DNA of 64,000 nucleotides, taken from assembly GCA_902623075.1 (NCBI GenBank), contig CACNSD010000003.1, positions 1 to 64,000 of the forward strand. Direction: 5' to 3'. This DNA comes from an uncultured Pelagibacteraceae bacterium (GTDB taxonomy: Bacteria; Pseudomonadota; Alphaproteobacteria; Pelagibacterales; Pelagibacteraceae). The notes under the pieces are model-generated. The model was not told the origin of the DNA, searched no databases, and saw only the letters and a program-made list of their open reading frames with translations. The position numbers were made by a program, and so were the translations under genes. This document shows positions 3,183-34,355 of this stretch, one piece after another. Each line of letters starts with the position of its first letter. Position 1 is the first letter of the stretch.

Positions 3183-3184
3183 AT

Positions 3185-6938: not shown

Positions 6939-6946
6939 AAAATTTA

Positions 6947-10225: not shown

Positions 10226-10233
10226 TAAAATTT

Positions 10234-10473
10234 CTAGTTAGCTTTACCTTCGATAAATTTAACCGCATCTCCTACAGTCAAAATTTTCTCTGCTTCACTG
10301 TCTGAAATTTCAGATCCAAATTCCTCTTCAAAAGCCATAACTAATTCAACAGTATCTAAACTATCAGCTCCTAAATCATCTATAAAACTTGATTCTTCCG
10401 TGACTTTTGCCTCATCGATACCTAAGTGATCAGCTACAATTTTTTTTACCTTGCTTGAAACGTCTTCTGACAT
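10234..10473 (-). CDS. acpP: Acyl carrier protein
   Basis: Small acidic carrier whose phosphopantetheine arm holds the growing fatty acid. From the ATG at 10473 it has 79 residues, with the modification motif [16 protein letters not shown] and Ser at position 38. A second ATG two codons upstream (10479) is possible. However, the AAGG at 10480-10483 would directly abut it, whereas it sits 6 bases before the ATG at 10473. The resulting [11 protein letters not shown] also fits the usual N-terminus. It lies between fabG and gmk, as in many alphaproteobacteria. Confidence 0.95.
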
Positions 10474-10521
10474 ATTCATCCTTTTCGTTATGAATTCTTA
10501 TTAGTTTAAAAACCTATTTTG

Positions 10522-17810: not shown

Positions 17811-19238
17811 TTGAAGGAAGAGTGTGGAGTTTTTGGTATTAGCAATACAAAGGATGCTTCAGCTCTAACTGCGCTAGGGCTTCATGCCCTACAACATAGA
17901 GGTCAAGAAGGCTGTGGAATAGTTACTTTTGATGGTAAAAAGTATTATTCTGAAAAAAGATTTGGTTTAGTTGGTGATAATTTCAACAAAGAAAAAGTAC
18001 TTAACAATCTTAAGGGAAATTATGCGATTGGCCATAACAGATACAGCACAACTGGAAACAATATATTAAGAAATATACAGCCTTTTTTTGCTGACACCAA
18101 TGCAGGAGGTATTGGTGTTGCGCATAATGGAAATCTTACTAATTCAATTGCTTTGAGAAATAAATTAGTTGAAGATGGAGCTATATTTTACACTACTTCA
18201 GACACTGAAACGATTGTTCAGTTAATTGCTAAATCGAAAAGACCTAAAAAAATTGACAAAGTAATTGATGCAATTTTTCAAATTCAAGGCGGCTATGCAT
18301 TAGTGATGTTAACTCAAAACTCATTAATTGGGGTAAGGGATCCCTGCGGAATTAGGCCTTTAGTAATTGGTAAGCTTGGCAAAAGTTATGTTTTAGCATC
18401 AGAGACGTGTGCATTTGATATAATTGGTGCAAAATTTTTAAGAGAAGTTGAAAATGGCGAAATAGTTTTAATTGAAAATAACGAGCTGAAAAGTATTAAG
18501 CCCTTCCCTGCTAAAAAAGAAAGACCATGTGTATTTGAATATATTTATTTTTCAAGACCAGATAGTCTAATTGGAGGCAAAACAGCATACGAACATAGAA
18601 AAAACATCGGTAGAGAACTAGCAAAAGAAAATGATACTGATGCCGATATAGTAGTTCCAGTTCCAGATTCTGGGAATGCAGCTGCTATGGGATTTGCTCA
18701 AGAAATAAAAATGAATTTTGAACATGGATTAATTCGAAACCATTATGTTGGAAGAACTTTTATTGAACCCAGTCAAAAAATTAGGAGCTTGGGTGTAAAA
18801 TTAAAATTAAATGCTAATCAAACAACAATTAAAAATAAAAAAATTATTCTAATTGATGACTCTCTTGTTCGGGGAACAACGTCTTATAAAATAGTTAAAA
18901 TGCTTTACGATGCTGGTGCAAAAGAAGTTCATGTTAAAATTGCATGCCCTGAAATAAGATATCCAGATTTTTATGGTGTAGACACACCTACTAAAAAAGA
19001 ATTGTTAGCAGCAAATAAAACAAATGATGAAATTTGTAAATATATTGGAGCTAAATCCTTAAGATTTTTATCTTTAGATGGATTGTATAAAGCTATTGGT
19101 TTTGAAAAAAGAAACGAAACATTTCCGCAATTAACAGATCATTATTTTACTGGTGATTATCCTGTTGAATTAGTGGATGAATTAGGAGATAATAAAATAA
19201 CTCAATTATCTTTATTAAGTACTGGATTAAACAATTAA
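17811..19238 (+). CDS. purF: Amidophosphoribosyltransferase
   Basis: First committed step of purine synthesis: PRPP plus glutamine gives phosphoribosylamine. The protein has the N-terminal glutamine amidotransferase with nucleophile Cys in KEECGVFGI and a PRPP-binding type I phosphoribosyltransferase motif (KIILIDDSLVRGTTS). I start at TTG 17811, seven bases after the cvpA stop. This leaves a 4-residue leader before the Cys. An ATG at 17757 would add 18 residues and overlap cvpA by 47 bases. A short propeptide is normal for this family, so both are possible. The C-terminal metal-cluster-type cysteines of B. subtilis PurF were not checked residue by residue. Confidence 0.93.
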   Translation: MKEECGVFGISNTKDASALTALGLHALQHRGQEGCGIVTFDGKKYYSEKRFGLVGDNFNKEKVLNNLKGNYAIGHNRYSTTGNNILRNIQPFFADTNAGGIGVAHNGNLTNSIALRNKLVEDGAIFYTTSDTETIVQLIAKSKRPKKIDKVIDAIFQIQGGYALVMLTQNSLIGVRDPCGIRPLVIGKLGKSYVLASETCAFDIIGAKFLREVENGEIVLIENNELKSIKPFPAKKERPCVFEYIYFSRPDSLIGGKTAYEHRKNIGRELAKENDTDADIVVPVPDSGNAAAMGFAQEIKMNFEHGLIRNHYVGRTFIEPSQKIRSLGVKLKLNANQTTIKNKKIILIDDSLVRGTTSYKIVKMLYDAGAKEVHVKIACPEIRYPDFYGVDTPTKKELLAANKTNDEICKYIGAKSLRFLSLDGLYKAIGFEKRNETFPQLTDHYFTGDYPVELVDELGDNKITQLSLLSTGLNN

Positions 19239-19241
19239 GTT

Positions 19242-19799
19242 ATGAAAACAGTAAATTTTACTGAAATGAAAAATGGAACTAAGGAAGATTATGAGCTTCT
19301 TGAAAAATTAGAGAAAAATTTTGAGAGACAAACAGCTGATAGAATTTTAAATTATTTATCTAAACAAACTTCAACTTTAGAAGGTTATAAAATCACTAGA
19401 TTAGAACACTCTTTACAAGCTGCAACAAGAGCTTTTAAAAATAAGGAAAGTGATGAAATGGTTGTTGCAACTTTATTGCATGATATTGGAGATGATCTTG
19501 CTCCAATGAATCATTCTCAATACGCTGCATCCATATTAAGACCTTATGTTTCCGAGAGAACTTATTGGATTATTCTTCATCATGGTCTTTTTCAAACTTT
19601 CTACAGTGCTGATCATTTAGGTGGTGATAAAAATGCAAGAGATCAGTTTAAAAACCATAAATATTATAAAGACACAATAGATTTTTGTGAAAAATATGAT
19701 CAGTGCTCGTTTGATCCTGATTATAAAAGTATGACTTTGGATGATTTTAGGCCATTAGTTAAAAAAATATTTTCCAGAGAGCCTTATTATCATCTTTAA
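19242..19799 (+). CDS. HD-domain protein of the COG4341 type
   Basis: 185-residue soluble protein with an HD-domain metal pattern: His56 (LEHSLQAAT), His80-Asp81 (LLHDIGDD), His91 (NHSQ), His113/114 (LHHG) and Asp153 (KYDQCSFD). The spacing resembles the PhnZ/MIOX-like oxygenase branch as well as predicted HD phosphohydrolases. The Tyr and Glu I recall from PhnZ before the first His are not in the same places here. Function is therefore open: hydrolase or di-iron oxygenase. It sits 3 bases after purF and before gshA, all on one strand. Confidence 0.75.
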   Translation: MKTVNFTEMKNGTKEDYELLEKLEKNFERQTADRILNYLSKQTSTLEGYKITRLEHSLQAATRAFKNKESDEMVVATLLHDIGDDLAPMNHSQYAASILRPYVSERTYWIILHHGLFQTFYSADHLGGDKNARDQFKNHKYYKDTIDFCEKYDQCSFDPDYKSMTLDDFRPLVKKIFSREPYYHL

Positions 19800-19828
19800 A
19801 TTTACATATAAATCAGTACTTAAAGCTC

Positions 19829-21124
19829 ATGATCGATACAAAAGATAAAATTATAGAATATTTGTCGTCAGGTATCAAAGATACAAAAAATTTTAGAATT
19901 GGAATTGAACATGAAAAGTTTCTTTTTAATAAAAACAATAATAAGAGAGTAGATTATTCAAAAATAAAAGAAATGTTCCAAGCTCTTCAAGAGTTTGGTT
20001 GGAAGCCAATATTTGAAAAAAAAAATATTATCGGATTAAATAAGGGAGGAAAAAATATTACCCTTGAGCCAGGTAATCAAATTGAACTTTCTGGAGATAA
20101 ATTAAATCATATGCACGAGGCATGTGCTGAATCACAAGATTATCTTTTCGAACTTGAGCAAGTAACAAAAAAACTAGATATTAAAATTGTTAGCTCAGGT
20201 TTTGACCCTTTCTCCAAATTAGAAGAAATTCCAAATAATCCTAAGGAAAGATATGAATTAATGACTAAAAGTATGCCCTTGGGTGGTGAATTAAGTTTGG
20301 ATATGATGTATAGGACATGCGGAACTCAATTGAACATAGATTATAAATCTGAGGATGATTTCAAAAAAAAATTTTTAGTAACAAATTCAATAGTTCCAAT
20401 TACAATTGCTCTATTTGCTAACTCATCTATAGTCGAAAAAAAAAATAGTAATTATTTATCTTATAGATCAAAAGTATGGCAAAGCACTTCCAGAGGTGGG
20501 CTTCCGAAATTATTCTTTGAGGATTTAAATTTTGAAAAATATGCTGAATTTGTAATGGACTTTCCAATTCTATTTATTCAACATAAAGACAAATATATAT
20601 CTGGATCCAAATATAAATTTAGTGATTTTATGAGTGGTAAAATCAATGAAATAGAAAATAGATTGCCGACAGAAAATGACTTAACGATCCATTTGAGCAC
20701 TATATTTACAGAGAATAGATTAAAAAAATATATAGAATTAAGGTCTATGGATACTTGTGGGTGGGATTGTCTTTGTTCTGGACCTGCTTTTTTTATTGGA
20801 ATGCTTTATGGTAATTTAGAGGAAGTACATGAATTAATAAAAAAATGGGATAAAAATAAAATTATTAATGCCTACCTAGAATCTCCAAAAAAAGGTTTTA
20901 ATACAGAACTTATGGGAAAAGATTTGCATTATTGGAGTTCAACGCTGTTAGATCTTTCGCGAAAAGGTCTTAATAATAGAGATATCTTAAGCAAAAAAGG
21001 GAAAAACGAAACTTTATTTTTAAATCATTTAAGAAAAGTAGTTTTTAACAAGTCAACAAATGCAGATTATATGATTGATAAATTTTCAAATAATGAAAAT
21101 TTAGAAGAATTATATGACCAGTAA
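19829..21124 (+). CDS. gshA: Glutamate-cysteine ligase
   Basis: ATP-dependent first step of glutathione synthesis. The 431-residue protein belongs to the plant/alphaproteobacterial type of the family. It has GIEHEKFLF near the N-terminus, the segment TLEPGNQIELSG (about 77-88), MYRTCGTQLNIDY (about 158), and a C-terminal ELRSMDTCGWDC block. It is followed by gshB, which overlaps its last 11 bases, so the two-step pathway is encoded as one unit. Confidence 0.92.
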   Translation: MIDTKDKIIEYLSSGIKDTKNFRIGIEHEKFLFNKNNNKRVDYSKIKEMFQALQEFGWKPIFEKKNIIGLNKGGKNITLEPGNQIELSGDKLNHMHEACAESQDYLFELEQVTKKLDIKIVSSGFDPFSKLEEIPNNPKERYELMTKSMPLGGELSLDMMYRTCGTQLNIDYKSEDDFKKKFLVTNSIVPITIALFANSSIVEKKNSNYLSYRSKVWQSTSRGGLPKLFFEDLNFEKYAEFVMDFPILFIQHKDKYISGSKYKFSDFMSGKINEIENRLPTENDLTIHLSTIFTENRLKKYIELRSMDTCGWDCLCSGPAFFIGMLYGNLEEVHELIKKWDKNKIINAYLESPKKGFNTELMGKDLHYWSSTLLDLSRKGLNNRDILSKKGKNETLFLNHLRKVVFNKSTNADYMIDKFSNNENLEELYDQ

Positions 21125-22040
21125 AATTATTGCGATACAAGGAAACCATCCTTCAAAATTAAACCCGATAACTGATACTAGTATTTTTTTAGCAAACGAA
21201 ATACAGAATAAGAAATATAAGATTTTCTATTATGATCCAAAAAATCTTTCGATTATAAATTCAAAAGTTATAGCTAGAGGTTTTTTTATTAAATTTAACT
21301 ATAAAAATAAAAATTTTTTCAAAATATTAAAAAGACAAGCTCTAGATCTCACAAAATGTAAGATTATTTTAATTCGGCAGGATCCACCTTTTAATCTTGA
21401 ATATATTTCTACTACTTACATTTTGGATAGAATTAAAAATAAAGTTAAAATAGTAAATAATCCAACTTCTATAAGAAATATATCCGAAAAATTATACTCG
21501 GCAAAATATCAAAGATTTATGCCTAGCACGATTTTTACTCAAGATTTAAGTGAAATTAAAAGTTTTATTAAGAAACATAAAAAAATAATATTAAAACCTA
21601 TTCATAGTTATAGTGGTAACGATATTCACTTACTAAAAAGCTTTAATAGAAAATTAATAAATAAATTTATTAACAAACATGATCATGTAATGTGTCAAAA
21701 ATTTCTTCCTAAAATAATTAATGGCGATAAAAGGGTTTTTATTATTAATGGAATAGTATGCGGAGCAATCTCAAGGGTTCCAAAAAAAGGTTCATTTTTA
21801 AGTAACATGAGTAAAGGAGCTAAACCAACTAGTATTGAATTAACAAATATGGAAAATAAAATATCAAAATTAATTGCAAAAGATTTAAAAAAAGAAAATA
21901 TTTTTTTTGCGGGAATTGATTTTATCGATCAGAAACTCAACGGAGATATAAATGTTACATCTCCAACTGGACTTAAAACATACTTTGATCTAACAGGAAG
22001 AAATCTAGCTAAAACTTTTTGGAAAGAACTCAGAGCGTGA
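21114..22040 (+). CDS. gshB: Glutathione synthetase
   Basis: Joins gamma-glutamylcysteine and glycine using an ATP-grasp fold. The 308-residue protein shows IILIRQDPPFNLEYISTTY in the N-terminal domain, the ATP-grasp segments KIILKPIHSYSGNDIHL and CQKFLPKIINGDKRVFIING, and a terminal NVTSPTGLKTYFDLTG. The last corresponds to the NVTSPTG motif of bacterial GshB. The stop overlaps the next gene's GTG start (GTGA). Confidence 0.95.
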   Translation: MTSKIIAIQGNHPSKLNPITDTSIFLANEIQNKKYKIFYYDPKNLSIINSKVIARGFFIKFNYKNKNFFKILKRQALDLTKCKIILIRQDPPFNLEYISTTYILDRIKNKVKIVNNPTSIRNISEKLYSAKYQRFMPSTIFTQDLSEIKSFIKKHKKIILKPIHSYSGNDIHLLKSFNRKLINKFINKHDHVMCQKFLPKIINGDKRVFIINGIVCGAISRVPKKGSFLSNMSKGAKPTSIELTNMENKISKLIAKDLKKENIFFAGIDFIDQKLNGDINVTSPTGLKTYFDLTGRNLAKTFWKELRA

Positions 22041-22912
22041 ATAATTTAACTAATCAACAAAAAGGGTCTTTAATGGCATTTGTTGCAATTATGTTTATAA
22101 CGCCTGACTCTCTACTTATTAGATTATCAAATATCGAAACTTGGGGAATGCTTTTCTACAGAGGCGCAATACCATTTGTTGTTGTTCTTATTGGTCTTAT
22201 TTTTTTTTATAAAAATAAATTTTTTACAGCTTTGTTTAAAATTGGTTATCCTGGTGTTTTTTATGTAATTAGTTTCTCTATTTGTAATATTACTTTTATT
22301 ATATCAATACAAAATACTAATGTAGCAAACACATTGTTAATGGTAGCACTTGCTCCAATGCTTTCAGCTATATTGGGTGCTATTTTCTTAAAAGAAAAAC
22401 CAGATAACAACACTTGGATTGCTATAATAATTACCTTTATTTCTTGTGTTTATATTTTTTATGACTCTTTAAGTCTTGGTAATTTTTATGGAGATATGTT
22501 TGGTTTGATCACCTCTTTTGGATTAGCCTGTAATGCTAACATAGCAAGATATGCAAAATCAACTGATCTAGTTCCGTCTGCTGTAATAGGAAAATTATGT
22601 GTTGCAATATTTGCTTTTTTCTTTGTGAAGGACTTCTCTTTAGTGGATAATGATCTTTTCTATGTACCCTTAATGTGTGTGATGTGTGTAGCTATACCAT
22701 TTGTTTTAGTGACTATAGCGCCTAGATTTATAACAGCAGCCGAAGTAAATCTTTTTTTCCTTCTAGAAACAATTCTTGGACCTTTATGGGTTTGGATGGT
22801 CATAAAAGAACAGCCTTCTAACGAGACAATTTATGGGGGTGTGGTTATCATTATTACGATAGCAATTCATTCTTTACTAGCCATAAAAAAAACACAAACC
22901 AAAACTACCTAG
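22037..22912 (+). CDS. EamA/DMT-family permease (paralogue 1)
   Basis: Ten-helix drug/metabolite transporter-type protein built from two EamA repeats. The reading frame extends to a TTG at 22019, but the GTG at 22037 overlaps the gshB TGA by 4 bases, a classic coupled start, so I begin there (291 residues). The first repeat ends near YIFYDSLSLG and the second near the terminal ITIAIHSLLAIKK. The position directly after gshB suggests export or import of a thiol, peptide or amino acid, but this is inference from location only. Two further EamA proteins occur at 33450 and 50616. Confidence 0.88.
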   Translation: MNNLTNQQKGSLMAFVAIMFITPDSLLIRLSNIETWGMLFYRGAIPFVVVLIGLIFFYKNKFFTALFKIGYPGVFYVISFSICNITFIISIQNTNVANTLLMVALAPMLSAILGAIFLKEKPDNNTWIAIIITFISCVYIFYDSLSLGNFYGDMFGLITSFGLACNANIARYAKSTDLVPSAVIGKLCVAIFAFFFVKDFSLVDNDLFYVPLMCVMCVAIPFVLVTIAPRFITAAEVNLFFLLETILGPLWVWMVIKEQPSNETIYGGVVIIITIAIHSLLAIKKTQTKTT

Positions 22913-22941
22913 CCAACAATTATTAAAATTTTAAATTATAA

Positions 22942-24246
22942 ATGCAAAAAGAAGTAAAACGATCTTGGGCTCTATTTATCGGAATAGGTGTAATGATGAT
23001 TGCTCATGGATTGCAAATGCAATTAATGGGCATAAGAGCTGTTCTGGAGGATTTTAGTGTTTTTACAACAGGTGTATTTATGTCAGGATACTTTATTGGT
23101 TATTTCGTTGGTTCAAGAACTACTCCAAATTTTGTATCAAAAGTTGGACATATAAGAGTGTTTGCTGCATTTGCGTCGCTTGCATCTTTAAGTGCATTAG
23201 TAGCAGTAGTTTATGTTAATCCATTTATGTGGACAATAAGTAGATTTATTACAGGTATAAGTTTAGTCAGTTGTTATGTTGTCACTGAAAGTTGGTTAAA
23301 TGACAGGGCTACAAATAAAAATAGAGGACAATTACTATCTACTTATATGATGGTTATCTATTTTGGATTAGCTCTTGGAATGCTATTGCTTAATATAAAT
23401 AAACCAGAAGACTATGAACCATTTATATTAGTTTCAGTATTACTTTCTATTGCGCTTGTTCCTATTTTATTAACAAAAAGACCAGCTCCTAAATTCAAAA
23501 AGATAGAGACAATTAGTATTAGTGAATTATTTAAAATTTCACCTTTAGGTTCACTGAGTTCATTCTTCACTGGTATTATTCACGCAGCTTTCTTTTCTTT
23601 AATATCTGTTTATGCAACACTTGCAAAATTTACATTATTTGAAACATCTATACTTTTATTCATTTCAACAATAGCAGGTGTAATCGGTCAGGGACCAATT
23701 GGGTATTTTTCAGATACTTTTGATAGAAGAAAAGTAATCGTAATAACAACTTTTGGTAGTTCAATTTTAGCATTTATTTCAATTTTAGCTTCCAATGATC
23801 CTATTCAAAATATTTATTACTTACATGGATTTAGTTTAAAAAAAATTATATTTTTTATTTCTGTAGGACTTTATTCAAGTTTATGTCTTCCTTTATTTTC
23901 ATTAAACCTCGCACATACAAATGATTTTGTTCCAAAATCAAAATTTGTTGCAGCCGGAGGTGGTTTGCAATTTATCTTTGGTATTGGAGCAATTAGTGGT
24001 CCTATTTTATGTTCTATATTTATGGAATGGTTTGGTTTAAATGGTTTATTTATTTTTTTGATTATTGCTCATGCAATAATTGGGGGATTTGGTTTGTATA
24101 GAATGAAAGTTAGAGAAACTGTTGAAAATCCTGACTCAACTTTTACACCTATTCCAGCAACAATTACCCCCGCTGGATTAGAGCTAGATCCAGATACACC
24201 TGCAACTCTTGATGAAAATACAGTGAATGAAACTGAAAAAACTTAA
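22942..24246 (+). CDS. MFS transporter (YcaD-like)
   Basis: 434 residues with twelve hydrophobic segments. The loop after helix 2 (GSRTTPNFVSKVGHIRVFA) and the loop motif GYFSDTFDRRKVIV in the second half match the YcaD-type branch of the major facilitator family. The C-terminal 45 residues form a Thr/Pro/Glu-rich hydrophilic tail (from about ENPDSTFTPIPA) that is absent from typical members. The substrate cannot be read. Its stop overlaps the convergent MOSC gene by 4 bases. Confidence 0.85.
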   Translation: MQKEVKRSWALFIGIGVMMIAHGLQMQLMGIRAVLEDFSVFTTGVFMSGYFIGYFVGSRTTPNFVSKVGHIRVFAAFASLASLSALVAVVYVNPFMWTISRFITGISLVSCYVVTESWLNDRATNKNRGQLLSTYMMVIYFGLALGMLLLNINKPEDYEPFILVSVLLSIALVPILLTKRPAPKFKKIETISISELFKISPLGSLSSFFTGIIHAAFFSLISVYATLAKFTLFETSILLFISTIAGVIGQGPIGYFSDTFDRRKVIVITTFGSSILAFISILASNDPIQNIYYLHGFSLKKIIFFISVGLYSSLCLPLFSLNLAHTNDFVPKSKFVAAGGGLQFIFGIGAISGPILCSIFMEWFGLNGLFIFLIIAHAIIGGFGLYRMKVRETVENPDSTFTPIPATITPAGLELDPDTPATLDENTVNETEKT

Positions 24247-24692
24247 GTATTAATTATTTCAATTTTATCACCGATATTAATTTTAGACGAAGAGAGAATT
24301 TGACACCTAAGTCCACCTTTTCTCATAAATTCTTTTAGAATATTTTTTTGCTGAAGCACTTCAGTCAAATGTCGACATGGACGACATAATTCAATCCCCT
24401 CTAATTCAACATTTCCTACTTTTAATTTTTTTCCAATTAAATCATTTAATTTAATACCTTTTGTAACAACATTTCGTCTAAAATCGATATAAGGGATATT
24501 AAACCCAAATCTAATATTGTATTCATCAATATTCTCAGACTCTATTAATGATAGTTGATTATAAGGATCATTAAAATCATGGAAATGTCGATCACCCAAT
24601 ATTCCTTTATTTGCCAAAACCTCAATCGAATTTACTTCCATGATTGGTTGATTATTGTTCGCGGCAATTCCTAATTTAAACACCTCAGCCAT
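24243..24692 (-). CDS. MOSC-domain protein
   Basis: 149-residue single-domain protein. MOSC domains bind the molybdenum cofactor through a conserved Cys and occur in Moco sulfurases, mARC-type reductases and YiiM-like proteins. Here GILGDRHF is the N-terminal signature, RRNVVTKGIKLNDLIGK is the middle, and IELCRPCRHL holds the candidate sulfur-carrying Cys. It shares the window with moeA, another Moco gene, about 10 kb away. It is divergent from the PhyH gene and convergent with the MFS gene. Confidence 0.87.
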   Translation of the reverse strand: MAEVFKLGIAANNNQPIMEVNSIEVLANKGILGDRHFHDFNDPYNQLSLIESENIDEYNIRFGFNIPYIDFRRNVVTKGIKLNDLIGKKLKVGNVELEGIELCRPCRHLTEVLQQKNILKEFMRKGGLRCQILSSSKINIGDKIEIINT

Positions 24693-24698
24693 AAATTA

Positions 24699-24725
24699 TT
24701 GAAGAAATAGTAGAGCTCATATAAT
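24699..24725 (+). promoter_or_regulatory. Candidate promoter for the PhyH-to-GT2 gene block
   Basis: TTGAAG at 24699-24704 and a perfect TATAAT at 24720-24725 are separated by 15 bases in the 46-base gap between the divergent MOSC and PhyH genes. The start would leave a leader of only some 7 bases before the ATG at 24739. The position is right and the -10 is perfect, but the spacer is short. Confidence 0.35.
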
Positions 24726-24738
24726 CTTTTAAAATAAT

Positions 24739-25563
24739 ATGGCTTATTTATCATCAAATCAACTTAAACAATATGAGAATCATGGTTACGTTTCTCCTAT
24801 TGAAGTTTTATCTAGAAATGAGGCATTAGAGGCAAGAAATGAAATAGAGTTAATTGAAAAAAAATTGCCTAATGAAATAGATAAATCAGGAAGATATAAT
24901 GTTCATTTAATTTCACCAAAACTTGATTCGATTGTTCATAATTCAAAAATTTTAGATGCTGTAGAAAGTATTATAGGAAAAAATATCTTAGTTTGTAGCA
25001 CTACTTTATTTATTAAAAATCCTAAAGAACAAGGTTTTGTAAGTTATCACCAAGATGCAAAGTACATAGGATTAGAACCTCACAATTGGGTTACAGCATG
25101 GGTAGCATTGACAGACTCAAATGAAAATAATGGCTGTATGAAAATGTGGCCTAAATCACATTTAAATATTAAAGATCACAATGAGAAATTTAATGAGGGA
25201 AATTTACTTACTCGAGGTCAAACAGTAGAAAATGTGCCTGAAAATGAAGTTAAATCTGTAGAATTAAAAGCTGGTCAAATGTCTTTGCATCACCCAAGAG
25301 TAGTACATGGATCAGGCATAAATAAGAGCAATGATAGAAGAATAGGATTTGTTATCCAAAGTTATATAGGGACAAACGTAAAACAAACCTTAGGTAAAAA
25401 TAGTGTTCAAATTGCAAGAGGAGAGGATAAATATCATTATCATGAAATTATAAATAGAACTAATTCTTTAATGAATGAAGAAAGTATTTTACTTCGAAAA
25501 AAAGAAAATGATTACTTGCAAGAAATTTTTTACAGGAATTCAAAAAAAAAAGGAATTTATTAA
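24739..25563 (+). CDS. Phytanoyl-CoA dioxygenase (PhyH) family protein
   Basis: Non-haem Fe(II)/2-oxoglutarate oxygenase of 274 residues. The iron triad is visible as His104-x-Asp106 in SYHQDAKY and His190 in VVHGSG, with Arg200 in SNDRRIGF as the likely 2-oxoglutarate anchor. The run EPHNWVTAWVALTDSNENNG and the GNLLTRGQ-KAGQMSLHHPR pattern are typical of the bacterial small-molecule hydroxylases in this family. PhnY-type enzymes belong to the same family, but substrate cannot be assigned. It is first of five consecutive plus-strand genes, and the next begins 2 bases after its stop. Confidence 0.9.
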   Translation: MAYLSSNQLKQYENHGYVSPIEVLSRNEALEARNEIELIEKKLPNEIDKSGRYNVHLISPKLDSIVHNSKILDAVESIIGKNILVCSTTLFIKNPKEQGFVSYHQDAKYIGLEPHNWVTAWVALTDSNENNGCMKMWPKSHLNIKDHNEKFNEGNLLTRGQTVENVPENEVKSVELKAGQMSLHHPRVVHGSGINKSNDRRIGFVIQSYIGTNVKQTLGKNSVQIARGEDKYHYHEIINRTNSLMNEESILLRKKENDYLQEIFYRNSKKKGIY

Positions 25564-25565
25564 TT

Positions 25566-27371
25566 ATGGATAATTCTGAATTAAATTTAATCTTAGAAAA
25601 TGGAATTAAATATCATCAACAAAATAAACTTATCAAAGCATCAAATTGTTATGAAGAAGTACTTAAATTAGATGGCAAAAATTTAAAGGCAAATCTTTTT
25701 TTGGGTATAATTTTTGCACAACAAAAAAAATTTTTAGAAGCTGAAAGGCAATTTAATAAATCGCTTAAAATAGATCCAGGAAACTCGGATGTATTCAATA
25801 ATCTTGGTTTAATTTATAAAGAAACTGATCAAATAAAAAAAAGTATTAACAGCTTTAATAAAGCAATAGAGTTAAATCCAAACTTTATACCTGCATATAA
25901 TAATCTTGGATTAATTTATCATTATTCCAAAAAATTTATTAAAGCAGAGGAAGTTTTTTTAAAAGTTTTAGAATTAGATAAAAATAATATAGATGCAAAA
26001 ATTAATCTTGCAATTTTATATAAAGATACATTTAAGCTGGATAAAGCACAAAATTTATTTATTAAAGTAATAAATCAAAATCCAACAAATCTAGTTGCTT
26101 TAATCAATTATGGTAATTTATTAAAAGTTATTGGTGATAAAAAAAAAAGTGAAGAATGTTTTAAAAAAGCTATAGAAATAAATTCAAAGTATTTTCCAGC
26201 ATATAACAATCTAATAGTTCTATATGAGAGAACAAACCAAAATCAGAAACTTAAAGAATTAATTGATAAAGCTTATTTATACTTTCCAGAAAATATGGTT
26301 CTCAAACTTTTCTTGGGGCAATATTTTTATAAAATTGAAGATTATAAAAAGTCCATTGATATCCTGAATAATATAAAATTTCACAAAAATGAGATCCAGC
26401 AAGAAAAATTAAGATGTCTGCTATTGGCAAAAAATTACGACAAAATTGGAAATACGGATCTAGCTTTTAAGTTTTTTCTAAATTCAAATAAAATTTCTTT
26501 AGACATGAAAGAGAAAAATATAGATAAAGATAAAGCTTTAAAAAATATTATTAATAGAATTCAACATTTTAAAAATAAACGAAACTATACCTTTTCTAAT
26601 TTAAATGACAAAAAAGCTCCTGTTTTTTTAATTGGTTTTCCAAGATCAGGAACGACATTGTTAGATACTATTTTAAGAAGTCATCCTGAAATAGATGTTT
26701 TGGAGGAAAAACCAATTACCACAGATATGCTGAATCATTTACAAAAAATTATAAACGGAGATTTAAATAATTTAGATAAAATTAATGATGAACAAATTAT
26801 TAATTTAAAAAATGAATACTTTAAAAACTTGGAAGATAATAAAGATAAAAATAAAAATTCAAGATTAGTTATAGACAAAATGCCTCTAAACATTGTTCAT
26901 GTAGGTGAAATTATAAGAGTATTCCCAGACGCGAAATTTATTGTTGCATTAAGACATCCTTCAGACTCTGTTTTGAGTTGTTTCATGCAGAACTTTAGAC
27001 TGAATGATTCAATGGCCAATTTTTTAAATATTGATGATACCGCAAAGATGTACAATTTAGTTATGACTCTTTGGAAACAGTACATCAATTCATTCTCAAT
27101 TAATTATCATTTAATTAAATACGAAGATGTGGTGACTAATTTTAAAGAAACAATGGAGCCTCTTTTAAAATTTTTAGATATTCCTTGGTCTGAAAATATT
27201 TTAAAATTTTATGAAACAGCACAATCAAGAAATTTAATTAATACCCCAAGTTATGACCAGGTATATAAACCTCTATACTCAGAATCTACAAATAGATGGA
27301 AGAAATATGAAAATAAAATTAAGCATGTTTTACCAATACTCAAGCCTTGGGTAAAAGAATTTAATTATTAA
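25566..27371 (+). CDS. TPR-repeat protein fused to a sulfotransferase domain
   Basis: 601 residues. The first 250 or so form at least six tetratricopeptide repeats (NNLGLIYKETDQIKKSINSF is one, recurring about every 34 residues). A helical linker follows, then a sulfotransferase domain from about 350. The PAPS 5'-phosphosulfate loop is GFPRSGTTLLDT (357-368). The 3'-phosphate motif is in ALRHPSDSVLSCF. Family members move sulfate from PAPS to protein, sugar or lipid hydroxyls, and the TPR part probably binds a protein or peptide. It follows the PhyH gene by 2 bases and abuts the next oxidoreductase. No signal peptide is seen, so a cytosolic role is likely. Confidence 0.88.
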   Translation: MDNSELNLILENGIKYHQQNKLIKASNCYEEVLKLDGKNLKANLFLGIIFAQQKKFLEAERQFNKSLKIDPGNSDVFNNLGLIYKETDQIKKSINSFNKAIELNPNFIPAYNNLGLIYHYSKKFIKAEEVFLKVLELDKNNIDAKINLAILYKDTFKLDKAQNLFIKVINQNPTNLVALINYGNLLKVIGDKKKSEECFKKAIEINSKYFPAYNNLIVLYERTNQNQKLKELIDKAYLYFPENMVLKLFLGQYFYKIEDYKKSIDILNNIKFHKNEIQQEKLRCLLLAKNYDKIGNTDLAFKFFLNSNKISLDMKEKNIDKDKALKNIINRIQHFKNKRNYTFSNLNDKKAPVFLIGFPRSGTTLLDTILRSHPEIDVLEEKPITTDMLNHLQKIINGDLNNLDKINDEQIINLKNEYFKNLEDNKDKNKNSRLVIDKMPLNIVHVGEIIRVFPDAKFIVALRHPSDSVLSCFMQNFRLNDSMANFLNIDDTAKMYNLVMTLWKQYINSFSINYHLIKYEDVVTNFKETMEPLLKFLDIPWSENILKFYETAQSRNLINTPSYDQVYKPLYSESTNRWKKYENKIKHVLPILKPWVKEFNY

Positions 27372-28382
27372 ATGAAAAAAAAAATAAATCTTGGAGTTAT
27401 TGGCATAGATCATGGACATATATTTGACATGCTGGACGAAATGTTAAAAGAAGGGTGTACTTGTAATTGTTTTTGGACAGAGGGTAATCCTATAACTCTT
27501 AAAGAATTTAATAAAAAATATCCAAATATTAAAAGAAAAGAAGATAAGAAGGATATATTAATTGATCCATCAATAGATATGATATTAATATCCTCAATCC
27601 CTGTAGATAGAGCCGGTCATTCAATTGATTCTTTAATAGCTGGGAAAGATGTTATGGTGGATAAACCAGGCTGTACTACCTTAAGTCAATTAAAAAATTT
27701 AAAACAAACTGTTAAAGAAACTGGTAAAATTTGGTCTATAAATTTTTCTGAAAGATTTCATGTCGCTGCAGTCACAAAAGCAGAAGAATTAGTAAATCAA
27801 GGCAAAATAGGGAAAGTAAAACAAACTATTGGTATAGGTCCGCATAGACAAGGAAACTATGAAAGACCTGATTGGTTTTACAATCGTCAAAGTTATGGAG
27901 GAATTATCACTGATATTGGTTCACACCAAATTCATCAATTTTTAGTTTTTACCAATTCAAACCAAGTTAGTATCAATCATTCATTGGTGGAAAATACGAC
28001 AAAAAAGGAAATGCCTGGTTTCCAAGATTTTGGTGAAGTAAATCTGACTGGAAATGGTGGGTATGGTTATGTTCGCCTAGATTGGTTTACTCCAGATGCC
28101 CTTCCAACCTGGGGAGATGGAAGGTTATTAATACTAGGAGACAAAGGTTTTATTGAAATTAGAAAATATACAGATTTAGCAAAATCAGAAAAAGGAAATC
28201 ATTTATTTTTAGCAAATAATGAAGAAGTTAAACATATTGATTGTTCTAATGTTAAGCTGCCCTACTTTAATAATTTAATTAATGATGTTTTAAACAGGAC
28301 AGAGTCTGCTTGTCCACAGGAACTAACTTTTCTTTCGATGGAACTTGCTATTAAAGCTCAAGAGCAAGCTGAAAAAAAATGA
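27372..28382 (+). CDS. Gfo/Idh/MocA-family oxidoreductase (first of pair)
   Basis: 336-residue NAD(P)-dependent sugar- or inositol-type dehydrogenase. The Rossmann start is GVIGIDHGHIFDM, where the usual Gly-rich loop is partly replaced by Asp-His-Gly-His. The family Lys appears in the motif DKPG (about 97-100) instead of EKP. The C-terminal alpha/beta domain contains GGIITDIGSHQIHQF, with the Asp and His expected near the substrate. It starts immediately after the sulfotransferase stop and overlaps the next gene by 4 bases. The substrate is unknown. Confidence 0.87.
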   Translation: MKKKINLGVIGIDHGHIFDMLDEMLKEGCTCNCFWTEGNPITLKEFNKKYPNIKRKEDKKDILIDPSIDMILISSIPVDRAGHSIDSLIAGKDVMVDKPGCTTLSQLKNLKQTVKETGKIWSINFSERFHVAAVTKAEELVNQGKIGKVKQTIGIGPHRQGNYERPDWFYNRQSYGGIITDIGSHQIHQFLVFTNSNQVSINHSLVENTTKKEMPGFQDFGEVNLTGNGGYGYVRLDWFTPDALPTWGDGRLLILGDKGFIEIRKYTDLAKSEKGNHLFLANNEEVKHIDCSNVKLPYFNNLINDVLNRTESACPQELTFLSMELAIKAQEQAEKK

Positions 28383-29455
28383 AAAAATATCAAGTTGCTA
28401 TAATTGGAACTAACATAGGAGCAAAACACTTTGAAGATTTTAAGAAAGTATCAGATAGATTTAATGTTCATACTATATGTGGTTTGACTAGAGATTCTAT
28501 TGATAAAATATTGCACTCAAATACTGAGACGGAGGTTTCTCTTAATTTTGATGATGTATTAAAAGTAAAAGAAATTGATATAATTGATATTTGTCTTCCA
28601 CCTCATTTACATTTTTCTGCTTGTAAAAAAGCTCTGGAAGCTGGTAAACATGTGATTTGTGAAAAACCTTTAGTCTCAAGTCTTAAAGAAATAGATGAAT
28701 TAGAAAGAATAAGTAAAAAAACAGGTAAGATTATTTTCCCAGTCTTTCAATATCGATATGGATTGGGTTTTTCTAAATTAAAAGCATTAATTAAATCAGG
28801 GCTTGCAGGTAAACCTCTCGTTGCTTCTTTAGAAACACATTGGAACAGAAGTAAAGATTATTACTCGAAACCATGGAGGGGCACATGGGAAGGTGAGCAA
28901 GGTGGAGCTATTTTAAGTCACTCTATTCATATTCATGATTTAGTTAGTATGATTTTAGGTCCTGTTTCAAATATTTTCGCAAAGTTAACAACTAGAGTAA
29001 ATGATATTGAGGTTGAGGATTGTGCTGCGCTTTCGATTGAAATGGAAAATGGGACCTTGGTAACAAGTTCTATCACATTAGGTGCTGCAAACGATACTAG
29101 TAGACTTAGATTTTGCTTTGAAGGATTAACAGCTGAGTCAGGTGCTTCACCTGAAAAACCTTATAATCCAGCTGATGATAATTGGACTTTTTTGGCAAGA
29201 GCTCCATATACTCAACATAATATTAATAATATTTTGTCTGAAGTAAAACACTCTAAATCATGGTACGCAGGAATGTTTAATGAGATAGCAAATAAATTAG
29301 ATGGATTAGATAGTGACGAAGTTACTTTAATAGATGCCAGAAAATCTTTAGAATTTGTGACTGCTGTTTATAATTCCTCAAGAAATAATACTGTTGTTAG
29401 TTTACCAATAAAAAAAAATAATCCATTATATAATTCATGGTTATTAAATAATTAA
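28379..29455 (+). CDS. Gfo/Idh/MocA-family oxidoreductase (second of pair)
   Basis: 358 residues with a canonical layout: Rossmann start VAIIGTNIGAKHF, DICLPPHLHF, catalytic Lys in CEKPLVSS, and the substrate-domain motif GGAILSHSIHIHDLV. It differs from its upstream neighbour in both loops, so the pair probably act on different carbons or substrates, or in sequence (oxidation then re-reduction). The ATG overlaps the preceding stop by 4 bases. Neighbouring GT2 and sulfotransferase genes suggest a modified sugar as the substrate class. Confidence 0.89.
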   Translation: MKKYQVAIIGTNIGAKHFEDFKKVSDRFNVHTICGLTRDSIDKILHSNTETEVSLNFDDVLKVKEIDIIDICLPPHLHFSACKKALEAGKHVICEKPLVSSLKEIDELERISKKTGKIIFPVFQYRYGLGFSKLKALIKSGLAGKPLVASLETHWNRSKDYYSKPWRGTWEGEQGGAILSHSIHIHDLVSMILGPVSNIFAKLTTRVNDIEVEDCAALSIEMENGTLVTSSITLGAANDTSRLRFCFEGLTAESGASPEKPYNPADDNWTFLARAPYTQHNINNILSEVKHSKSWYAGMFNEIANKLDGLDSDEVTLIDARKSLEFVTAVYNSSRNNTVVSLPIKKNNPLYNSWLLNN

Positions 29456-29475
29456 CTGCTATATAAATAAATAGA

Positions 29476-30162
29476 ATGATAAAAATTACTTTTCTGATAA
29501 CAGTATTTAATGAAGTAAAGACAGTTAGAAAAGCAATTAATGATATTATCAATCTTGATTTTCCTGAAAAAGAAATAATAATTATTGATAATGGATCTAG
29601 TGACGGAAGTCAGGAGATTATTAAAGAATTTAAAAATATAAAAACTATTTTAAGAACAAAAAACTTGGGATATGGCTCAACTGTTATTGAAGGATTAAAT
29701 TTAGCTAAAGGGAAATATATTTATATTCATAATTCTGATCTAGAATATGATTTTACAAAAAGTATTGAAATGATGAATGTTGCAGATACTAATAACCTAG
29801 ACATCGTTTTAGGATCAAGACTCAAAAATAAAAAAAATATTATTAAAAACCTTAAATCTAATCCTGCTTTTTTAGCTACTTATGTTACTACATTTTTAAT
29901 TAATATATTATATAAAAAAAAATTTACAGATATAATAGGTTCAAAATTTTATAAAGTTGAAAAGTTAAAAAATATAAAAGTTGACTTTTACCATGAGGGT
30001 TTTGATTTTGGATTTATTAGTAGAGTATGTAAAGAAAAATATAATATTGATGAAATAGCTGTAGATTACACTCCTAGAGAAAATTTTTACGAAAAAAAAA
30101 TTAAATGGTACCATATGTTTGCAGCTTTATATGCAATTTTTAGAGTAAAATTTTTTAATTAA
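29476..30162 (+). CDS. Family 2 glycosyltransferase
   Basis: 228-residue GT-A-fold enzyme without C-terminal membrane helices. It has TFLITVFNE at the N-terminus, the nucleotide-sugar site IIIIDNGSSDGS, and YIYIHNSDLEYD where most relatives have the DxD-type ADLQ motif. The length and lack of membrane helices resemble the catalytic part of dolichyl- or undecaprenyl-phosphate mannosyltransferase-like proteins. It is last in the plus-strand PhyH-to-GT2 block and ends 16 bases before the convergent ThDP enzyme. Confidence 0.88.
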   Translation: MIKITFLITVFNEVKTVRKAINDIINLDFPEKEIIIIDNGSSDGSQEIIKEFKNIKTILRTKNLGYGSTVIEGLNLAKGKYIYIHNSDLEYDFTKSIEMMNVADTNNLDIVLGSRLKNKKNIIKNLKSNPAFLATYVTTFLINILYKKKFTDIIGSKFYKVEKLKNIKVDFYHEGFDFGFISRVCKEKYNIDEIAVDYTPRENFYEKKIKWYHMFAALYAIFRVKFFN

Positions 30163-30178
30163 TCTTAAAGCTACTAAA

Positions 30179-31984
30179 CTATTTATTTTCAGAGATCATA
30201 ATTTTTTTCAGAACGTCTCTATCAATAAAAGGAAATAAATCCTCAAGAGGTGAAGTTGTCATTTTACCATTTGATCCAATTTGAGAAGTTAATTTAGGGT
30301 ATAAATGTTTTTTTGGATCAATCTTAACCTCTATTACCTCGGCAAAATCATTATTTAGTATTTTTCTTAATTTAAAGTCTAGCTCTTTATTATTTGATAT
30401 TAAGCTATATTTTAAACCATAAGCTTTGACTACTTTTTTAATACTAGGTATTTCGACACCACTTACTGCTGAAGATCCAACATAATTTTTTCTAAAATAT
30501 GTATCCTGTGTGACCCTGATTGCATGATAACCTTTATTTTGAAAAATAAAAATTTTAACTTTAATTTTATTTGTAACAATCGTTTGTAATTCTTGAACAT
30601 TTAATTGGAAACCACCATCACCTATAATTGTTATAGATCTTTTATTATTCTTAGATAATGAAGAGCCTATAGAACTAGGTAAACCAAATCCCATCGATGC
30701 CATACCTTTTGCTGTAAAAACTCTTTGATTTTTTTTTGATTTAAAAGTTTGCCCTGAAACCGTAAAACAAGTACCAGATGCACCTAATGGGACTAATTCA
30801 TCATCTCTCAATTTATCGCTTAATTTGTCAACAAAAAAGTAAGGATCTACAAATTTTTTATTTTTAATTTCTTCAAAGTTAGGTATTACTGGATATTCTC
30901 TTTTAATATTATTGCAATATTCTAACCATTCAGAAAAATTTTTTTTATATTTTTGTTTTTTTAATTTCTTAGTTAATTTTTCAATAAATTTTTTAGCATC
31001 ACTTTTGATAAATTTGTCAATTTTTAATTTAGGCTTTTTGGATTCATTTACATCAAGATCAACCATATGAAGAATTGCGTTTCTTGCAAAAGCTTTAACA
31101 TTATAACCTGTATGCTGAACGCCCAATCTTGCTCCTATTGAAAGTATATAGTCAGCATTTTGTATAATAAAGTTAGGGTACCTTGGCCCATAGGAATTTG
31201 CCCTTCCAAAATAATATTTATTTTTTTCTGGAATTAAATCAATTGAATTCCATGTAGTTTGACATGGTAAATTTAAAGTATCCAGAAGTTTTCTAGCATC
31301 CTTTTTAGCATTTGATAAAAAAACACCATGTCCAAATAAAATCAATGGTCTTTTTGAATTTTTTAAGTTCTTTATTACTAAATTTAATGAATTGTCTTTT
31401 GGATTAGGATTTGAATTAATAATTTGTGAATTTTTATAAAAAAAGCTCTTATTTTTTTTTATCTCAATTTTTGAATTTTGAATATCAAGAGGAATATCTA
31501 TCCAAACAGGTCCCGGCCTACCACTTTTTGCTAAAAAACAAGCTTTTTCTAATTCATATTGAACTTTATCTTTATTATCTAAATGGACGGCATATTTTGT
31601 TGTTGATTTAACTGAACTTATAATATCAAATTCTTGGAAACCTAATTGCCTTATATTCATTTTCTTTTTTGAGAACAATGTAGAAACCTGCCCTGAAACA
31701 ACTACCATTGGTACACTATCCATAAATGCCGCTGTAACTCCTGTTAACGCATTGGTGGCTCCTGGTCCTGATGTTACAAGACATATTCCTAATGAATTAA
31801 TAGTTCTACCGTATGCGTTTGCAGCTATGGAGGCTGCTTGTTCATGGTGCATCGAAATTGTTTTAAATTTACTTTTTCCTACGGAATCAAGTAAATGCAT
31901 CATTCCTCCACCTGACAGTAGAAAAACATGTTTGGACCCACTTACCTTATATAAATACTGCCAAATATAATCAGAGATTTTCAT
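30179..31984 (-). CDS. Thiamine-diphosphate-dependent enzyme, acetolactate-synthase-like
   Basis: 601 residues with the three-domain POX/ALS fold. The catalytic Glu48 is in MHHEQAAS, the Pyr domain has TSGPGATNA, and the central domain has IGARLGVQHTG. The PP domain has the metal/ThDP motif GDGG (455-458) that ends at QNKG (482-485). It resembles the IlvB-like proteins often found in surface-polysaccharide or secondary-metabolite loci. No small regulatory subunit is adjacent, so branched-chain synthesis is unlikely. The reaction, a 2-oxoacid decarboxylation or ligation, is unknown. It faces the GT2 gene. Confidence 0.85.
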   Translation of the reverse strand: MKISDYIWQYLYKVSGSKHVFLLSGGGMMHLLDSVGKSKFKTISMHHEQAASIAANAYGRTINSLGICLVTSGPGATNALTGVTAAFMDSVPMVVVSGQVSTLFSKKKMNIRQLGFQEFDIISSVKSTTKYAVHLDNKDKVQYELEKACFLAKSGRPGPVWIDIPLDIQNSKIEIKKNKSFFYKNSQIINSNPNPKDNSLNLVIKNLKNSKRPLILFGHGVFLSNAKKDARKLLDTLNLPCQTTWNSIDLIPEKNKYYFGRANSYGPRYPNFIIQNADYILSIGARLGVQHTGYNVKAFARNAILHMVDLDVNESKKPKLKIDKFIKSDAKKFIEKLTKKLKKQKYKKNFSEWLEYCNNIKREYPVIPNFEEIKNKKFVDPYFFVDKLSDKLRDDELVPLGASGTCFTVSGQTFKSKKNQRVFTAKGMASMGFGLPSSIGSSLSKNNKRSITIIGDGGFQLNVQELQTIVTNKIKVKIFIFQNKGYHAIRVTQDTYFRKNYVGSSAVSGVEIPSIKKVVKAYGLKYSLISNNKELDFKLRKILNNDFAEVIEVKIDPKKHLYPKLTSQIGSNGKMTTSPLEDLFPFIDRDVLKKIMISENK

Positions 31985-32086: not shown

Positions 32087-32314
32087 ATGAACAAAGAAAA
32101 CGCAAGTAAACTCTGGGAAATTATTCAGGAAGCTGGCGATTATTTGGTAGGACAACTACCCGATCATTCAAATCATCCAAAAGGAAGGAACCCCTATGCC
32201 CATATTGCTATATGCGTAAAAAATAAATTTAAAGCAAGTTACAAGGATATTCCAGATGAACATTATGAAGAGGTACTGAAATATATTGAGTTTTTAAAAA
32301 AAAATCCAAATTAA
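32087..32314 (+). CDS. Small conserved-looking protein of unknown function
   Basis: 75 residues from a clear ATG, with 102 bases upstream and its own orientation. It has no membrane segment or signal. The middle carries DHSNHPKGRNPYAHIAICVK, rich in His and aromatic residues, and the C-terminus is a predicted helix (EHYEEVLKYIEFLKK). It is too long and too amphipathic in the right places to be a chance frame, and it fills an otherwise empty interval. I do not recognise the family. Confidence 0.7.
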   Translation: MNKENASKLWEIIQEAGDYLVGQLPDHSNHPKGRNPYAHIAICVKNKFKASYKDIPDEHYEEVLKYIEFLKKNPN

Positions 32315-32331
32315 TTGTATAACTAATCAAA

Positions 32332-33447
32332 CTATTGTTTTGGAAAATAATCTTTTAAATCACCTTCTCGATACACATCTGCTGTACAACAATGAAGTCC
32401 ACCTCCAAATGCATAAGCATCTCTAAGCTCTACCAGTAAAACTTCCATACCTAATCTATCTAATTGCTCAGCTTGATATATTTCACTTTTTTCAACACAT
32501 ACAGTTTTTGGATCTAATACTAAAACGTTCATTGATAACCAAGTCGATGAATAACATAGTGGTGGAGGCTCGTTATGAGCAGGTTGAGCACTGTCTACTA
32601 TTTCCCAACCATTATCTTCAAATAATTTTCTTTGTTCTTTTGGTAGTCTTCTCTGAGGATTATTAATAATTAAACCTTCTTTTATTGGTGTAAAAGTTGC
32701 ATCAATGTGAATTGGGTAAGGATCACCAGGAAAATTAACTGCATGAACTCTATGAGATTTATAGTGTCGTTTTAACCAATCAATTCCTTTCAAGTTTGTT
32801 GTAAAACCATGCTGAACAACTAAATCTTTACCAAATCTTAATACATCAGCCGCATCAAATAATGGTTCCTCCTCAGTAGTCACAAAATATTTTTTTTCTG
32901 TCCATTCTAATCTTTTTTGAACACCTATTTTATCTGAAAGATAGTCTTTTCTATAATCTAAATCAGTTAGTCTCGGTTTAGGAGCAGACTCATGCCTCAT
33001 ATTATGGTCTTTAATGTAATATTCTTTTAAAAGAGGTCGATAGCATAAATATTCGAACCAACGACATCGATAGCTCATTGTTGCCTCTAAAATTTCATTA
33101 CCTACCGTTAATAAAACATCTCTTGGAGGCATACAGCCAAACATTGTTTCTGCTTCCCAATCAGGTGTGGATGTTTTTTGATTAAAATCTATTGGTGTGG
33201 GTCGATCAACTTTAATTCCTCTTTTCTGAAGCATATTTGAAAAATCATCTAAAAGTTGATTTGCCTTATCTACTGTATCTTTTGTTCTTGGTCCAAACTG
33301 ACCTCGCATATCACTATCCTCTGGAACTTTTGCATCTAATGCTGGTTCAGGGGCAGGTATACATGTGCCATCTGCTCGACCCACAATAACATGTTTTAAT
33401 GGGTCCCATTCATTCCAGCTATTTACAATTATTTTATTATCACTCAT
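32332..33447 (-). CDS. Glycine/arginine amidinotransferase-like protein
   Basis: 371 residues of the pentein-fold amidinotransferase family (human GATM type), which moves an amidino group from arginine to an amine. The catalytic triad is readable: Asp in FDAADVLRF, His in PIHIDATF, and the nucleophile Cys in GGGLHCCTADVYR near the C-terminus. Likely products are ornithine plus a guanidino compound, such as guanidinoacetate if glycine is the acceptor; the acceptor is not provable here. It begins 2 bases after the stop of an upstream EamA permease on the same strand. Confidence 0.85.
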   Translation of the reverse strand: MSDNKIIVNSWNEWDPLKHVIVGRADGTCIPAPEPALDAKVPEDSDMRGQFGPRTKDTVDKANQLLDDFSNMLQKRGIKVDRPTPIDFNQKTSTPDWEAETMFGCMPPRDVLLTVGNEILEATMSYRCRWFEYLCYRPLLKEYYIKDHNMRHESAPKPRLTDLDYRKDYLSDKIGVQKRLEWTEKKYFVTTEEEPLFDAADVLRFGKDLVVQHGFTTNLKGIDWLKRHYKSHRVHAVNFPGDPYPIHIDATFTPIKEGLIINNPQRRLPKEQRKLFEDNGWEIVDSAQPAHNEPPPLCYSSTWLSMNVLVLDPKTVCVEKSEIYQAEQLDRLGMEVLLVELRDAYAFGGGLHCCTADVYREGDLKDYFPKQ

Positions 33448-33449
33448 AA

Positions 33450-34355
33450 TTAATTTAACGCTATATATCTTTTATTCCATCTCATAATTAAACTGTAATA
33501 AAATATAGATACAAAAAGAAAAAAACCACCAATGATAGTATTAGTGGTTGGTACCTCATTTATACCAAGTATTGGCAACCATACCCAAAAAATCCCACCC
33601 ACAACTTCAGTTAAAGACAGTAAAGTCAATTCTGCTGCTGGTATTGCCTTAGATCCAATTGAATATAAAATCAAACCGAAACAAACTAAAGTTCCATGCA
33701 AAGAAAATAAAGCACCATTATAACTAGATGAAAAGAATACTAATTTATTTGTTAAAATCATAATAGTGGCAAACACAACACAGAAGAAACCTGCAAAAGC
33801 TACTGTTGTAAATTTAGGTGTTTCATTTCTCCATCTTAAAGTTACAGAAAAAATTGAAAAACCAATTGAAGAGGTTAAACCAAACACAAAACCTATTAAT
33901 GATTTTTCACCTGTATTATCAAGAGCCATTATAATTATACCAACTGTCGCAATTATTATTGATACCCAGACATTAAGAGAAATTTTTTCTCTTAAGAATA
34001 AAAAAGCCAATAATGCGGTAAAGAATGGCATTGCAGCTAAACAAAGCAAAGTAACTGCCGCACTCGTATTAGTAATTGAATAAATAAATGTAATCATAGC
34101 AATCCCTAAACCAGACCCACCAATTACTCCAGATAAACCTATTTTATAATAATTTTTATAGAAATTTTTTCCTTCTTCAAAAAATAGGTAAAGATTCAAT
34201 AAAATAAAAATTGTTAAGCCTCTACCAAAAATATATTGCCAAGGTGATAATTGTGGATTATCCATATATCTAACAACTAGTGGACCAAAAGACCATAATA
34301 GTCCTGCAAAAAGAACAACCGGAATAGCAATTCTAGGATTTCTAAGCTCTAACAT
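33450..34355 (-). CDS. EamA/DMT-family permease (paralogue 2)
   Basis: 301 residues with ten hydrophobic segments in two EamA repeats. The N-terminal region WSFGPLVVRYMDNPQLSPWQ and the mid-protein ITNTSAAVTLLCLAAMPFF match paralogue 1 in style. It is directly upstream of the amidinotransferase with only 2 bases between them, so a shared transcript and a shared substrate (a guanidino compound or its precursor) are plausible. The functional link is inference. Confidence 0.88.
   Translation of the reverse strand: MLELRNPRIAIPVVLFAGLLWSFGPLVVRYMDNPQLSPWQYIFGRGLTIFILLNLYLFFEEGKNFYKNYYKIGLSGVIGGSGLGIAMITFIYSITNTSAAVTLLCLAAMPFFTALLAFLFLREKISLNVWVSIIIATVGIIIMALDNTGEKSLIGFVFGLTSSIGFSIFSVTLRWRNETPKFTTVAFAGFFCVVFATIMILTNKLVFFSSSYNGALFSLHGTLVCFGLILYSIGSKAIPAAELTLLSLTEVVGGIFWVWLPILGINEVPTTNTIIGGFFLFVSIFYYSLIMRWNKRYIALN

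Follow-up and report, generated by a model that had tools for sequence, protein, structure and literature searches.

Do six closely spaced genes of an uncultured Pelagibacteraceae bacterium form one pathway, or do they mark a place at which SAR11 genomes carry changing accessory genes? The genes lie in a 64,000-nucleotide stretch of DNA, here called the window, which belongs to contig 3 of a 1.2 Mb genome (31 contigs, 92% complete). Five of them are on the plus strand and encode a PhyH-family Fe(II)/2-oxoglutarate dioxygenase (PhyH; 24739-25563; Pfam PhyH, 101 bits), a TPR-sulfotransferase (25566-27371; Sulfotransfer_3, 128 bits, with TPRs and a PRSGTT motif), two Gfo/Idh/MocA oxidoreductases, GFO1 (Gfo/Idh-1; 27372-28382; GFO_IDH_MocA, 37 bits) and GFO2 (Gfo/Idh-2; 28379-29455; GFO_IDH_MocA, 82 bits), whose genes overlap by 4 bp, and a short family-2 glycosyltransferase (GT2; 29476-30162; Glycos_transf_2, 98 bits). 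The sixth, on the minus strand, encodes a ThDP enzyme (30179-31984; TPP_enzyme N/M/C, 105/85/100 bits). All six family assignments are above the Pfam cut-offs, and the successive gaps are 2, 0, -4, 20 and 16 bp. Positions, strands, lengths, gaps and families agree with the original prediction, as does the lack of a flanking tRNA, since ARAGORN found none in the whole window. That prediction treated the genes as one pathway, either for a sulfated, modified sugar or glycolipid or for the tailoring of an imported compound. Close spacing alone does not establish a common pathway, and the direct comparisons described here show that genes packed closely in one direction in a streamlined genome do not have to belong to one.

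Orthologues of GFO1 (E<=1e-30, 74-100% identity) were present in 64 of 399 genus genomes, and a family-level search matched 71 of 147 genomes, only 3 of which, own included, exceeded 33% identity; these and all later genome-search counts refer to a sample drawn from each group. We examined the loci of 62 of the 64 GFO1 genomes (G354 and G439 were left out) and of G088, together with the best 80 of 131 GFO1 relatives, all Pelagibacter-type. Once 37 loci in which the last 700 bases of GFO1 duplicated those of an earlier locus had been dropped from the 143 pooled (3 + 60 + 80), 106 distinct loci remained, some of them cut by contig ends. GFO2 directly follows GFO1 in 104 of these, its place being taken by a contig end in one of the others and by another gene in the second. 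PhyH precedes GFO1 in 78 loci, directly in 69, and an MFS gene stands directly before GFO1, with no PhyH, in 23. A MOSC-domain gene, which in the window diverges from PhyH (24243-24692, minus strand; MOSC, 51.5 bits), immediately precedes PhyH in 75 of these 78 loci and belongs to the window's family in 51 and to a second MOSC-domain family in 24. We conclude that the fixed unit is GFO1-GFO2 and that PhyH is its usual partner, mostly with a divergent MOSC gene. The left boundary had been placed at the MFS and MOSC genes; the side of insertion was right, but the MOSC gene is a member of the cassette rather than an outer landmark. One locus (L287, 3747-8730) has MOSC and PhyH followed by a gene for a 1033-aa Eco57I-type restriction-modification protein, without GFO1-GFO2.

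The outer landmarks of the variable interval are an MFS transporter gene on the left (22942-24246, plus strand; MFS_1, 98 bits) and an amidinotransferase gene on the right (32332-33447, minus strand), for whose product the nearest PDB entry is L-arginine:glycine amidinotransferase (1jdx, 290.5 bits); this gene is present in 80 of 101 genus genomes. Among 20 genus genomes without GFO1, hand-picked for long contigs, 17 had these landmarks 252-5782 bp apart with other cargo or none, and in three (L287, L300 and L301) the interval was not seen. Together with the patchy occurrence of GFO1, this bears out the view that the genes are accessory and inserted with the MFS/MOSC side on their left and the amidinotransferase on their right. 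We conclude that the MFS-amidinotransferase interval is a flexible-island hotspot, which in this genome houses MOSC / PhyH-GFO1-GFO2 as its resident cassette. The block also sits at a second genomic place, since five distinct loci (L148-L151 and L153) show Ehu-type ABC transporter, MOSC, PhyH, GFO1 and GFO2 with neither MFS nor amidinotransferase gene in the stretch; this second place is near a bacteriorhodopsin-like gene (Pfam on the L153 copy, 182 bits).

SAR11 hypervariable regions, or flexible islands, are described as occupying a fixed place between conserved genes while their cargo varies, and sulfotransferases are listed among their non-syntenic genes (PMC2217521, PMC7318151). The locus resembles them in that conserved anchors enclose accessory genes at one fixed place, with cargo that differs from genome to genome; the passages of the two papers on these regions do not mention the MFS-amidinotransferase site, and the words 'amidinotransferase' and 'phytanoyl' occur 0 times in PMC2217521. 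As far as those passages describe the type, the locus is a flexible genomic island of a known SAR11 kind; its dehydrogenase pair is conserved and its insertion slot unusual. The hotspot itself being of a known kind, the modest novelty is the slot inside the operon. Literature searches did not find Gfo/Idh/MocA together with phytanoyl-CoA dioxygenase, a SAR11 sulfotransferase with tetratricopeptide, or glucuronide-3-dehydrogenase.

Among the 106 loci, three of the six genes are particular to the window in their position. The sulfotransferase stands at the PhyH/GFO1 junction in 1 of the 106 loci, that of the window, and GT2 and the ThDP gene occur in 0 of the other 105. A direct comparison is with L121, which aligns with the window in the same order at 86-91% identity yet lacks all three: window positions 19001-25565, 27372-29376 and 32095-33449 align with 2513-9070, 9072-11076 and 11236-12588 of L121, and the piece missing with the sulfotransferase begins just past the stop codon of PhyH and ends where GFO1 starts. 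Sulfotransferase homologues (42-51% identity) occur elsewhere in three other distinct loci, at the MFS/MOSC junction in L229 and at the junction of the amidinotransferase and M24 genes in L107 and L223. GT2 is rare (3 of 250 genus genomes at E<=1e-35, own included), and matches to the ThDP enzyme at E<=1e-105 were found in 20 of 297 family genomes, own included, one relative being 76% identical (G640, at a contig end) and the others 36-43%. The GC contents of the sulfotransferase, GT2 and ThDP genes are 0.24, 0.22 and 0.285, and that of the window is 0.284. A phage origin of the inserts was considered and set aside, as no relative was found in viral contigs with the ThDP enzyme, GT2 and a GFO1 alignment as queries (a single-protein query reaches close relatives only). 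We conclude that the sulfotransferase, GT2 and ThDP genes are most likely later private inserts. Homologues scattered separately in other genomes, which the original prediction had named as evidence that would count against it, are what we observed for these three genes and not for PhyH-GFO1-GFO2, which move together; the one-pathway reading thus fails on its own terms for three of the six genes.

The sulfotransferase is not alone in its position. In nine of the 78 loci with PhyH, other genes separate it from GFO1, and in eight of the nine these encode TPR-fused proteins: family d34 in six loci, the sulfotransferase in one and d77, a TPR-methyltransferase, in one. The ninth (G063) holds a gene pair, one with an FGE-sulfatase domain and one of the pectinacetylesterase family. 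A TPR model recognises each of the six d34 proteins, and the L127 protein also passes Glyco_transf_9 (29.1 bits, cut-off 22), with three others just under. The inserts fit closely: they start 1 to 4 bp beyond PhyH and end with a gap of -4 to 11 bp to GFO1, and the PhyH-GFO1 gap of insert-free loci is -1 to 5 bp. Across lineages d34 is 52-63% identical and the adjoining GFO1 82-94%, and the greater divergence of d34 points to either repeated exchange or fast evolution. The junction appears to be a site of exchange of single modifying enzymes within an operon. A tentative explanation, possible but not the one we would expect to prevail, is that it is a one-gene exchange slot in a working catabolic operon, in which TPR-fused modifying enzymes (sulfotransferase, methyltransferase, glycosyltransferase-9-like) might be swapped from stop to start with no visible mobile element, and surface or protein modification would ride on expression of the operon.

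HxD is present in 75 of 75 distinct PhyH orthologues and the distal His-Arg motif in 73 of 75, as in PhyH-type Fe(II)/2-oxoglutarate hydroxylases, which have an HxD...H triad and a distal Arg. Non-haem iron halogenases have HxA or HxG in place of HxD, and the presence here of HxD with the distal His-Arg makes a hydroxylase more likely than a halogenase. Two specific identities were rejected, namely non-haem iron halogenase (TIGR01762, 72.9 bits against a cut-off of 226.3) and ectoine hydroxylase ThpD (TIGR02408, 26.7 bits against 336.5), and a structure model built from 16 close orthologues was unusable (mean pLDDT 38.5). GFO1 and GFO2 both have the Gfo/Idh/MocA domains, the EKP-type Lys and the GG...D...H motif, the last only partly kept in GFO2. 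In GFO1, VDKPG is found in 104 of 105 and GGI..DIGSHQI in 101 of 105 distinct sequences, and its two nearest solved relatives are named simply as oxidoreductases. GFO2 has CEKP in 98 of 98 sequences and GGAILSHSIH, with Ser at the usual place of Asp, in 83 of 98.

The ThDP enzyme is nearest in the PDB, over its whole length, to 8rph (367.7 bits), and a biosynthetic acetolactate synthase was rejected (TIGR00118, 367.3 bits, cut-off 538.35). 8rph is JanthE, described as a YerE-like ThDP carboligase with an uncommon CDG ThDP motif (PMC12188165); the window enzyme, in contrast to JanthE as described there, has GDG. By its sequence it is a candidate YerE-like carboligase, the likeness to YerE running by way of JanthE. 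Eight further Pelagibacteraceae neighbourhoods of ThDP genes were reached by ORF listing, and in seven of them an epimerase- or DegT-family sugar enzyme (Pfam) is near. A ninth, G313, was reached through its GT2 and has a 39% ThDP relative beside thyX and a GT2 of the window's subfamily two genes away, a proximity which suggests that GT2 and the ThDP enzyme may share a job.

The GFO1-GFO2 pair extends beyond SAR11. Among 289 class genomes searched at E<=1e-60, GFO1 was found in 15 and GFO2 in 9, own included. Every one of the eight other genomes with GFO2 also has GFO1. The two genes directly adjoin in the same order in six; in G773 they are separated by about 1.2 kb, and in G774 they fall on separate contigs. 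In a further six genomes GFO1 passed this threshold but GFO2 did not. The pair is also adjacent on plasmids of Phyllobacterium, Sinorhizobium and Rhizobium. Twelve of the 18 outgroup loci examined have an adjacent pair, and in 11 of these 12 the same stretch holds homologues of both CUT1-type sugar permeases (Pfam on a sample), from which it follows that the pair most likely oxidises an imported sugar-like compound. A third Gfo/Idh gene directly precedes or follows GFO1 in several outgroup loci. Compared with rhizobial CUT1 sugar ABC operons, which have two or three Gfo/Idh genes, the window has GFO1 and GFO2 as orthologues (45-54% identical) in the same order, but its cassette has PhyH and MOSC in place of a CUT1 transporter and a third Gfo/Idh. 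GFO1-GFO2 is a small, testable pair common to abundant ocean bacteria and rhizobial sugar-importer operons.

We favour, with a probability of about 0.6, a joint reading in which the locus is an island hotspot that holds a PhyH-GFO1-GFO2 cassette acting on an imported sugar-like compound, together with three private inserts. The unit is conserved, its distribution is patchy, its motifs are kept and its neighbours outside SAR11 are sugar importers. GFO1 and GFO2 would most likely work together as oxidoreductases, oxidising a hydroxyl group of the compound and perhaps reducing it again, and PhyH would hydroxylate or oxidatively de-alkylate this compound; use of NAD(P), a catabolic direction, the order of the steps and the substrate are what we infer for such a scheme. 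By analogy with YerE-type enzymes, the ThDP enzyme would probably add a two-carbon unit to a keto-sugar. The sulfotransferase, judging from its position, would probably share a transcript with the cassette rather than a pathway. The earlier idea of tailoring an imported compound is a fair guess for PhyH-GFO1-GFO2, but is not supported for all six genes. Several observations count against this reading: in 22 of the 106 loci the cassette has an ABC transporter of the Ehu (ectoine/hydroxyectoine) type as neighbour, in 23 the pair comes directly after MFS with no PhyH, L287 has PhyH without the pair, GFO2 has Ser in place of the usual motif Asp, and GT2 and the ThDP enzyme may share a job, as the G313 genes suggest. 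In addition, no sugar lyase or hydrolase was seen in the window's cassette.

The Ehu-type transporter would suit an amino-acid-like solute instead, and PhyH-GFO1-GFO2 might then degrade an ectoine-like or other amino-acid-like osmolyte. The order of the block is unchanged at the second genomic place, which accounts for five of the 22 transporter loci, and in G063 EhuA, C and D are over the curated cut-offs, EhuB falling short (3 of 4 subunits). However, the examined stretch of the other 84 loci, some of them cut by contig ends, holds no such transporter, PhyH scores far below the cut-off of the ectoine hydroxylase model, and the pair outside SAR11 goes with CUT1-type transporters; we consider an osmolyte unlikely. 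Still less likely, in our judgement, is that GFO1-GFO2 take part in degrading a uronic-acid sugar or glucuronide via C3 oxidation. In G669 GFO1 has UxuA and UxaC nearby, and in G807 UxuA (all over curated cut-offs), but UxuA was matched in only 2 of the 18 outgroup loci and in 0 of 11 Pelagibacter genomes tested, six of which have GFO1, and hexuronate catabolism in SAR11 was rejected on this count. WlbA, a UDP-GlcNAcA dehydrogenase (3q2i), appears to be the closest match of GFO2 by both sequence and predicted fold, with glucuronide-3-dehydrogenase (8tdi) a weaker one; identity to WlbA is 24%, however, the GFO2 model (mean pLDDT 68.6) served one fold search only, and no nucleotide-sugar pathway was seen beside GFO2 in the window.

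Least likely of all is that the six genes make up one pathway to a sulfated, modified sugar or glycolipid, of which other genomes would carry reduced versions. Their close packing, for the most part on the same strand, the plausibility of the activities, the likeness of the ThDP enzyme to YerE-type carboligases and the GT2 and ThDP genes of G313 would all fit such a pathway. Against it, the sulfotransferase, GT2 and ThDP genes stand together in none of the other 105 loci, L121 keeps PhyH-GFO1-GFO2 without them, sulfotransferase homologues occupy other junctions, and the GFO pair accompanies sugar importers outside SAR11. Of the two models searched for sulfate activation, ATP-sulfurylase (PF01747) had no match in the window's own genome and was present in 1 of 41 genomes searched, and APS kinase (PF01583) gave one partial match there, to a short ORF (38.8 bits). 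Synthesis of a sulfated glycolipid is not supported.

In relatives, Beta_elim_lyase-family and M24 peptidase/creatinase-family genes adjoin the amidinotransferase gene (L038, 15085-18475), and neither is beside it in the window (32332-34355). With an arginine:glycine-type amidinotransferase, these neighbours may form a guanidino-compound locus; the M24 gene was also considered as ectoine hydrolase DoeA and rejected (73 bits, cut-off 613). Elsewhere in the window's own genome, the sole APS-kinase-family match, a short kinase-like ORF (L304, contig 1 near 130248), lies between M24-type and nucleotidyltransferase-like genes, the neighbours being named from sequence. Just upstream of the window's amidinotransferase gene is a 75-aa ORF (32087-32314, plus strand), whose DNA is kept in L121 at 86% over the aligned stretch.
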